The notes below the pieces were generated by a model. That model was not told the DNA's origin. It made no database searches and saw only the letters and a program-made list of their open reading frames with translations. From assembly GCA_018401275.1 (NCBI GenBank), contig JAGYKW010000002.1, positions 1 to 64,000 on the forward strand: a stretch of 64,000 nt of DNA, in the 5' to 3' direction. Below, piece by piece: positions 59,838 to 62,109 of this stretch. This DNA comes from Nitriliruptoraceae bacterium. GTDB taxonomy: Bacteria; Actinomycetota; Nitriliruptoria; Nitriliruptorales; Nitriliruptoraceae. Position numbers and translations under genes: made by a program. Numbering within the stretch: position 1 is the first letter of the stretch; every line of letters begins with the position of its first letter.

Positions 59838-61340
59838 TCAGATGAGCAGGCGGGCGCTGGGGCGTGGTGAGGACGGTTCGTAGTGGGCCCATGCGGCCGC
59901 GAGCCGATCCACGGCCGTGACGAGCCGATCCTCCGGCTCGACGTACGCCATGCGCAGCGCCCGGCGGTTCCCGTCGTCGACCGACAGTGCGGGACCGGGG
60001 ATCACCGCCACGCGATGCTCGAGCGCGAGCTCGGCGAACTCCTCGGCGTTGCCGGACGGGAGGTGGGACCACAGCGACAGCCCGCCGGCCGGGACCTCGA
60101 ACGTCCAGTCCGGCAGACGCGTGCGCAGCGCGTCGACGAGCGCATCGCGTCGCGGCCTCAACTGCCCGATGCGTTCGGTCCGGATGGCGTCGACCTGCTC
60201 GAGCAGTCGGACCGACAGCAGCTGGTCGAGCAGGGCCGAGCCGAGGTCGGCGACCGTCTTCGTCGCGAGCATGCGGACGATCCAGTCGGCGGGCACGTGC
60301 ACCCAGCCGGTGCGCAGGCCCGCCCACATCAGCTTCGCCGTCGAGCCGACCGTCATCACGGTGGCGTCGGGCGCGAGCGATCCGATGGACGGCGGGAGGC
60401 CGCCGCCGTCGAGATCGAGCTCCGCCATCGTCTGGTCCTCGATGACGATGATCCCCGTGCGCTGCGCGATGCGGGCGACCTGCTGGCGGCGCTCCAGCGG
60501 CAGCACGGTGCCGGTCGGGTTGTGGAAGTCAGGTGAGAGGTAGATGAGGCGTGCACCGCTGCGCAGGACGAGGTCCTCGAGGAGGTCGGTCCGTGCGCCG
60601 TGCTCGTCGAGCGGGAGCGGGATCGCGCGCGCGCCGAAGCGGCGGAAGATGTCGAGCGCGCCGGGGAACGTGGGCGACTCGATGACGACGCTGTCCCCGG
60701 CCTGCACCGTCTGACGCGCGATGAGCGAGATCGCCTGATGGGAGCCGGTCGTGATCACGACGTGGTCGGGGTCGGTGGCCAGGCCACGGGTCGCGAGCCG
60801 CTCGGAGACGATCCTGCGCAGCGCGGAGAGGCCGTGCGGGAGGTAGCCGTGCTGCGCGAGGACCTCGTCGAGGCCAGGTCCGTGCGGCTGTTCGATGAGG
60901 CGGCGGAGGGCGCTCGTCGCCGGGAGCGCGGCGACCGACAGATCGATCGTGTCGGGGGGCAGGTTCGGCCGCCCGATCTCCGGCCGTCCGACCTGGCCGT
61001 CCGCGGACAGGAACAGGCGGCCGGTGGAGACGGCGTCGACGCGTTCCGGGCTCGGGTCGGGACGGCGGACCCAGGTCCCCGATCCTCGGCGGCTGTCGAG
61101 CCAGCCCTCGCGCTTGAGCCGCTCGTAGGCGGCGACGACGGTCGAGCGACTGACGGCGAGTGACCGAGCGAGCGACCGCTCGGCGGGCAGGACGGTGCCG
61201 AGCGCCACGTCGCCGCGGTCGACGAGGCGCTTCAACCCGTCCGAGATCCGCAGGTAGAGGGGCCCGTCGCCGCTCAGGTGCAGTTCAGTCGCGAGCAGAC
61301 CGGCCAGGTGCGGTCCACTCTCGCGGATTGGCTGGTCCAA
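59838..61340 (-). CDS. MocR-type transcription factor (GntR winged helix plus aminotransferase-like domain)
   Basis: A 500-residue regulator. The GntR winged helix is at about residues 25-95 (LYLRISDGLKRLVDRGDV to LPAERSLARSLAVSRSTV), followed by a fold-type I aminotransferase-like domain. PLP lysine: STAKLMWAG. PLP-site motifs include DFHNPTGTV and VIEDQTMAELDL. MocR proteins sense PLP, amino acids or amines and often control divergent genes. The start is a TTG at 61340 and is uncertain. An operator-like TGGTCCAAT overlaps it, which suggests autoregulation. Confidence 0.88.
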   Translation of the reverse strand: MDQPIRESGPHLAGLLATELHLSGDGPLYLRISDGLKRLVDRGDVALGTVLPAERSLARSLAVSRSTVVAAYERLKREGWLDSRRGSGTWVRRPDPSPERVDAVSTGRLFLSADGQVGRPEIGRPNLPPDTIDLSVAALPATSALRRLIEQPHGPGLDEVLAQHGYLPHGLSALRRIVSERLATRGLATDPDHVVITTGSHQAISLIARQTVQAGDSVVIESPTFPGALDIFRRFGARAIPLPLDEHGARTDLLEDLVLRSGARLIYLSPDFHNPTGTVLPLERRQQVARIAQRTGIIVIEDQTMAELDLDGGGLPPSIGSLAPDATVMTVGSTAKLMWAGLRTGWVHVPADWIVRMLATKTVADLGSALLDQLLSVRLLEQVDAIRTERIGQLRPRRDALVDALRTRLPDWTFEVPAGGLSLWSHLPSGNAEEFAELALEHRVAVIPGPALSVDDGNRRALRMAYVEPEDRLVTAVDRLAAAWAHYEPSSPRPSARLLI

Positions 61341-61341
61341 T
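61333..61341 (-). promoter_or_regulatory. Operator-like repeat TGGTCCAAT at the MocR start
   Basis: The minus-strand ATTGGACCA overlaps the MocR start codon. A second GGTCCAAT lies 96 bases away at 61430. Shared spaced copies suggest MocR operators, but the direct-repeat geometry is not that of a known family site. Confidence 0.35.
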
Positions 61342-61368
61342 GTCTATCCAGTCTGGGGGCCCAGGGGC

Positions 61369-61396
61369 TTGCGGTTGCCGTTCTGGACGGTACGAT
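61369..61396 (+). promoter_or_regulatory. Promoter of the candidate 6C-like RNA
   Basis: -35 TTGCGG (61369-61374), 16 bases, -10 TACGAT (61391-61396). It fires into a region with no recognised protein gene, away from the MocR gene, so the likely product is a non-coding RNA. Confidence 0.45.
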
Positions 61397-61428
61397 AGCA
61401 GCGTTGTGCAGGTGGACTTCTGTCGGAC

Positions 61429-61437
61429 CGGTCCAAT
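61429..61437 (+). promoter_or_regulatory. Second operator-like CGGTCCAAT
   Basis: Shares GGTCCAAT with the site at 61334-61341. It lies just downstream of the candidate ncRNA promoter, so MocR could control both the RNA and its own gene. Confidence 0.3.
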
Positions 61438-61650
61438 AGGGCCAGATGACGGAGACCTGACAGCCACCGCGGTGTGTGCTCCCCCCCGAGCCGATCCGCG
61501 ATGACAACTGAACCGCAGGCGCTCAATGACCATCTCCCAGGTCGGGCGCCGCGGAGCTCGGGAAGGACCAGCCTTCTCCCCCTGACGGCACTCCCACCGT
61601 CTTCGTCGCGACCCCCCCGTCGCGTATCCGGCTGAAGCCCCCGAGCACAG

Positions 61651-61690
61651 ACGACGTCCCTCCGGTGCTCGCACCGGGGGGACGCGTCGT
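61651..61690 (+). terminator. Terminator of the candidate RNA
   Basis: A long GC-rich hairpin: inner stem CCGGTGC/GCACCGG with a TC loop, extended by CCC/GGG pairs and an outer ACGACG/CGTCGT. It lies directly after hairpin two of the candidate 6C-like RNA. Confidence 0.7.
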
Positions 61691-61691
61691 T

Positions 61692-61733
61692 GGACGGGAC
61701 TTGTCGGACGGGATTCGTTGGACGGGACTCGTG
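61692..61733 (+). repeat. Three-copy 14-base repeat
   Basis: GGACGGGA starts at 61692, 61706 and 61720, each within a 14-base unit whose last six bases vary. It lies between the RNA terminator and the convergent gene at 61750. Confidence 0.65.
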
Positions 61734-61749
61734 CGCCTCGGGGCCGCGG

Positions 61750-62109
61750 TCAGGCCGCGCGGCGACGCCCGACGAGCACCTCACGGAGCGCGTGCGTCCG
61801 CCATGCCGCGATCGAGACGTACACGAGGAGCGCGCCGCTCCCGGTGACCGCGGTCAGGACGAGCCAGACGAGCGCGCGGGCGACGCTGCGTTCGCGCCAG
61901 GCGATCCACAGCCAGCCGAGCACGAGTGCGAGTCCGAGGTCGACGAACGTCACGCGACCCCACACGAACGCAGCGATCTCCGCGCCCTCCGCGCCGAGCG
62001 GCGCGCCGGACGCCAGCGCGAGCACGATCGTGACCGCCATGACCAGCGCACCCAACGGTGCGAGCACGCGCAGGACGCGCACGGCCGGCTCGGGTCGGAC
62101 GGCGCTCAC
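61750..62109 (-). CDS. Small membrane protein (DUF1475-like?)
   Basis: A 119-residue protein with three hydrophobic segments (about 14-33, 50-68 and 75-95). WGRVTFVDLGLALVLGWLWI resembles small membrane proteins of the DUF1475/DUF2834 type, a weak match. It ends with an Arg-rich tail. The ATG overlaps the upstream ferredoxin stop (ATGA), so it is coupled to it. Confidence 0.6.
   Translation of the reverse strand: MSAVRPEPAVRVLRVLAPLGALVMAVTIVLALASGAPLGAEGAEIAAFVWGRVTFVDLGLALVLGWLWIAWRERSVARALVWLVLTAVTGSGALLVYVSIAAWRTHALREVLVGRRRAA

Follow-up and report, generated by a model that had tools for sequence, protein, structure and literature searches.

A conserved structured RNA with repeated C-rich loops next to a MocR-type regulator gene in Nitriliruptoraceae: a candidate trans-acting small RNA

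The Locus and Its Boundaries

The window analysed in this study is a 64,000-nucleotide stretch of DNA from a Nitriliruptoraceae bacterium. Near its end, an intergenic stretch (61341-61749) separates a minus-strand gene (59838-61340) from an operon on the same strand, whose end lies at 61750. The gene encodes a YczR-like regulator of the MocR type, with a GntR helix-turn-helix and an aminotransferase domain, as judged from Pfam (GntR, 4.9e-15; Aminotran_1_2, 2.9e-25), NCBIfam (MocR_like_YczR, 450 bits, below the cut-off of 487), and synteny. The predicted small RNA occupies 61403-61690 on the plus strand (about 288 nt, hereafter about 290 nt) and is supported by covariance and DNA identity. Compared with two sister species, the intergenic DNA showed 83% and 72% identity; the 3' end recurred throughout the family. 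The region folded much more stably than shuffled sequences (z-score -5.9).

A putative promoter for the RNA was located on the plus strand at 61369-61396 (-35 TTGCGG, 16-nt spacer, -10 TACGAT), placing the expected start near 61403. At the other end, a terminator-type hairpin of about 40 nt (61650-61691) was very strong (z -4.2 for 61650-61689). A preliminary description of this DNA had reported both a promoter and a strong terminator. A generic scan of the region for sigma-70 promoters and terminators detected neither, but the promoter is credible, since similar boxes (TTGGAC-N17-TAnCGT-like) were present at the corresponding position in 24 of 28 homologues. As for the terminator, the strength of the hairpin was borne out, but it is followed by the tail CGUCGUUGG and not by a U-run. 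At the sequence level, the RNA thus appears to have its own promoter and terminator, the latter being a hairpin that lacks a U-run. The hairpin is nearly symmetrical, and it probably also serves the convergent minus-strand operon.

Secondary Structure and Covariation

An alignment of 20 loci revealed the same element throughout, consisting of hairpin A, a stem P1 enclosing P2, P3, and P4, and the terminator hairpin. A covariance model (R1) built from 13 relatives, with the genus of the window left out, matched the window at 61503-61691 with 81.9 bits (E 7.3e-19). When 28 sequences were counted in an alignment that had been fitted to the structure and therefore somewhat favours it, compensatory changes occurred in 22 of 35 base pairs, compared with 5.7 in shuffles, and the proportion of paired cells was 97.5%, falling to 42-51% when one arm was slid along the other. 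The match in the window, which is independent, and the evidence for P2 are free of that bias. P2 (5' arm CAGCC, 61569-61573; 3' arm GGCUG, 61630-61634) was not part of the covariance model; its arms scored 18.4 in their own pairing and 12.9 when swapped between species (sd 0.56; 0 of 5000 permutations).

All elements lie on the plus strand. The first is a 5' hairpin (61468-61500) in which a run of seven C (61481-61487) is closed by an inner stem of 4 bp (GCUC/GAGC); this upstream part is less conserved in the relatives. A single-stranded motif, GACAACUGAA (61503-61512), directly precedes hairpin A and is highly conserved among the 28 homologues. Hairpin A (61513-61554) carries the loop AUCUCCCA; seven of its eight pairs showed compensatory changes, and its loop contained CUCCC in 27 of 28 sequences. 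The multibranched domain is closed by the P1 arms GCUCGGG (61556-61562) and CCCGAGC (61640-61646), with compensatory changes in five of seven pairs. Between P2 and P3 lies a C-rich junction, UUCUCCCCCU (61574-61583), with CUCCC in all 28 homologues. P3 (GACGG-CACUCCCA-CCGUC, 61584-61601) had three of four pairs with compensatory changes and CUCCC in its loop in 26 of 28. P4 (CGCGAC-CCCCCC-GUCGCG, 61607-61624) had four of five such pairs; its C-run (61612-61618) is closed by the 6-bp stem CGCGAC/GUCGCG. In the relatives this position is taken by a GGAUG..CAUCC hairpin with a CUCCC loop (26 of 28), and a pure run of C was seen in the species of the window and in one of its sisters. The terminator loop contained CUCCC in 24 of 28 homologues and reads GUGCUCGCAC in the window.

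The runs in the 5' hairpin and P4 are the two six-cytosine loops on which the preliminary description was based. No other hairpin loop on the plus strand of the 64-kb window has six or more C, and dinucleotide shuffles gave an expectation of 0.03 per strand for such a pair within 200 nt; the original observation is therefore sound. These two are among a total of five to six C-rich loops and junctions. Across the 28 homologues, CUCCC occurred 7.1 times per RNA (2.2 in shuffles). Five elements carried it in 24-28 of the 28 sequences each: loop A, the junction of P2 and P3, loops B and C, and the terminator loop. In most relatives, the counterpart of the six-cytosine loops reads CUCUCCCA (CUCUCCC). 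The loops of the window itself have drifted, P4 having become pure C6 and the terminator loop having lost the CUCCC motif; the two C6 loops thus derive from those of an RNA with multiple seeds.

Judged by structure, covariation, and synteny, the segment 61403-61690 almost certainly represents a conserved structured non-coding RNA. Rfam searches of the window and its relatives at gathering and permissive thresholds returned nothing real, no Rfam 15 model recognises the family, and the literature searched contained no small-RNA studies on Nitriliruptoraceae. The idea raised in the preliminary description, that the same C-rich seed is used here by a new class, is well supported. The case for a new RNA family is strong with respect to structure; its assignment to a functional kind with C-rich anti-Shine-Dalgarno loops is suggestive.

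Distribution and Linkage to the MocR Gene

R1 matched 28 of 35 Nitriliruptoraceae genomes, each with an E-value of 2e-10 or better; in a search of 396 genomes of the phylum, only noise was obtained outside this family (best E 4e-5). Seven family genomes gave no full-length match, one of which (G020) had a weak 30-bit match. Because some of the genomes are incomplete, single absences carry little weight. Of the seven genomes without a full-length match, six also had no close orthologue of the MocR gene; in the remaining one (G004), the only homologue was about 40% identical. No such RNA adjoined the MocR homologues of about 40% identity in G004 and in other families.

In all 28 genomes, the MocR/YczR-type gene was the divergent, head-to-head neighbour of the RNA. 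GTCCAAT/ATTGG repeats (GGATTGGCTGGTCCAATGTCTATCCA) were found at the start of the MocR gene (61325-61350, minus strand) and are kept in homologues as GGATTGGNTCGTCCAATAGCAGTCCAA; they probably constitute an autoregulatory operator. These repeats, together with the TTGGAC -35 box of the RNA in 24 of 28 homologues, make it likely that MocR also controls the RNA.

Proposed Function and Candidate Targets

Our preferred reading is that the locus specifies a free-standing, trans-acting small RNA linked to MocR, with multiple seeds of anti-Shine-Dalgarno type and with ABC transporters as the likeliest targets. We consider this joint statement somewhat better than an even bet, at a rough probability of 0.55 for the whole; conserved structure, covariation, synteny, non-coding nature, and seed repetition can be read directly from the sequences, and from these we infer transcription, MocR control, anti-Shine-Dalgarno action, and targets. 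In this model, the RNA of about 290 nt would be driven by its own promoter, divergent from the gene of a PLP-dependent (vitamin-B6-dependent) regulator that probably controls it. The multibranched fold would present the seed CUCUCCC(A) at five or six sites, in loops and at junctions, and each seed could pair with a G-rich, UGGGAGA-like Shine-Dalgarno stretch and block translation. The best candidate targets are the solute-binding proteins of ABC transporters, so that nutrient uptake would perhaps be turned off.

Seed complements were analysed in the relatives, using an 11-mer complementary to the most conserved loop. It occupied the Shine-Dalgarno position at 10 of 18 sites outside the RNA, compared with 4 of 30 for the mirror motif (p 0.003). 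Lipoprotein genes accounted for 7 of the 22 genes behind seed-complement sites in the relatives and for 1 of 42 (about 2%) with permuted motifs (p 0.002), a post hoc observation whose permuted-motif control came from a single genome. Six of the seven lipoproteins had a Pfam solute-binding match (one below the curated cut-off) or were orthologues of such a protein. The 8-mer UGGGAGAG was not enriched at translation starts in 2.4 Mb (60%) of the complete genome G025. Its ATG-placed count was only 127, compared with 86 for the mirror motif, and the rate was similar in genomes lacking the RNA. We put forward ABC solute-binding protein genes as targets as a hypothesis.

The same loops might instead bind a protein, with the structured RNA acting as a sponge or scaffold for a recogniser of C-rich single strands and not pairing with mRNAs. 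RNAs that sequester proteins typically carry repeated identical loops, and the lack of enrichment of the 8-mer complement at translation starts in G025 fits this idea. However, the seed complements at start sites fall on a non-random class of genes, and known RNAs with C-rich loops target ribosome-binding sites. Protein binding is a serious though unlikely alternative to the trans-acting, mRNA-pairing small RNA.

By analogy, the closest functional counterparts of such an mRNA-pairing RNA appear to be alphaproteobacterial alpha-r14/NfeR1 and mycobacterial 6C/B11. The C-rich loops of 6C/B11 pair with ribosome-binding sites (PMC10470900, PMC8628891), and the likeness lies in the use of such loops as seeds. 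NfeR1 of the alpha-r14 family has three hairpins, each with the anti-Shine-Dalgarno motif CCUCCUCCC, and its target candidates are mostly ABC transport systems (PMC10746234). Alpha-r14/cuckoo RNAs and the RNA described here share the presentation of one identical C-rich motif by several hairpins, the motif of the present RNA being of putative anti-Shine-Dalgarno type. Where the alphaproteobacterial RNAs have three CCUCCUCCC hairpins, however, the present one repeats CUCUCCCA in five to six elements, contains a multibranched domain that is closed, and lies beside a MocR gene. It was not assigned to the alpha-r14/cuckoo group, because the identical CCUCCUCCC motif is absent, the motif here is CUCUCCC(A), the fold is different, and there is no Rfam match. 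The new RNA suggests that C-rich anti-Shine-Dalgarno loops in many copies originated more than once.

The arrangement also resembles a known circuit. GcvB of enterobacteria is a small RNA encoded beside an amino-acid-linked regulator gene, and it silences many ABC transporter mRNAs. Its seed is G/U-rich and its regulator, GcvA, is of the LysR type; the likeness would be one of circuit, with no relation in sequence or structure seen. As a more speculative and rather doubtful extension, a MocR/YczR protein that senses pyridoxal phosphate together with an amine or amino-acid ligand might control a multi-seed small RNA that stops nutrient uptake; this would be a GcvB-like circuit that arose independently in this class of actinobacteria, and it might be the first case of a MocR protein paired with an sRNA. 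MocR regulators are usually known for single operons; through such a pairing they might gain broad control at the post-transcriptional level. Together, the RNA and its regulator make up a compact unit amenable to testing in relatives that can be cultured.

Alternative Classifications of the Locus

An improbable alternative is that the element acts in cis, as a leader, attenuator, or antisense RNA of a neighbouring gene. It does adjoin a regulator gene and shares its 3' hairpin with the convergent operon. However, the preceding gene is divergent in every one of the 28 genomes, and the next gene was convergent wherever it was identified; from this arrangement we conclude that the RNA is free-standing. 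The convergent neighbour was a ComEB-like deaminase gene (22 genomes) or the hyp119 gene (16), and the loops were kept while the downstream gene varied. The ComEB-like deaminase gene (L032, 926-1474, and 21 other loci) was not found behind the RNA in the genus of the window.

Still less probable is membership of the 6C RNA family (RF01066) with diverged spacing, which the preliminary description had offered as one explanation. Two stem-loops with at least six C are present in the window, 6C RNAs are known from the same phylum, and a similar function of the C loops is plausible. However, the covariance search suggested at that time gave no RF01066 match in the window at E<=10, and none was obtained in 19 relatives at E<=1; the score in a canonical relative (L027) was 18.6 bits (E 3.4), against an Rfam cut-off of 47, and membership was therefore rejected. 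Most of the 28 homologues carry five to six CUCUCCC elements in place of two C6 loops. The 6C model spans 75 positions, whereas the present RNA is about 290 nt long, lies in a different context, and comprises a 5' hairpin, hairpin A, the multibranched P1-P4 domain, and the terminator hairpin. Across the class, RF01066 matches were few and located elsewhere, with one match below the cut-off in 1 of the 35 family genomes. A locus in another family of the class (L021, G047:C1:905881-905956) scored 48.3 bits, just above the cut-off.

A small protein encoded at 61501-61635 (61474-61635) can practically be discounted: an open reading frame of 44-53 codons is present in the window, but none of at least 25 codons occurs at the corresponding place in the two sister species, the other homologues have no counterpart, there is no Pfam match, and the base pairs covary as in an RNA.

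In a genome of another family (G048), two hairpins that resemble the terminator and have similar C-rich loops occur in isolation (L054, G048:C40:7522-7552, and G048:C10:26071-26103); the model did not find the rest of the RNA. In a pattern scan of named genomes, 16 of 17 carriers belonged to Nitriliruptoraceae and one was placed only as Actinomycetota. All of these carriers were metagenome-assembled, and their isolate names suggest an origin in sediments.
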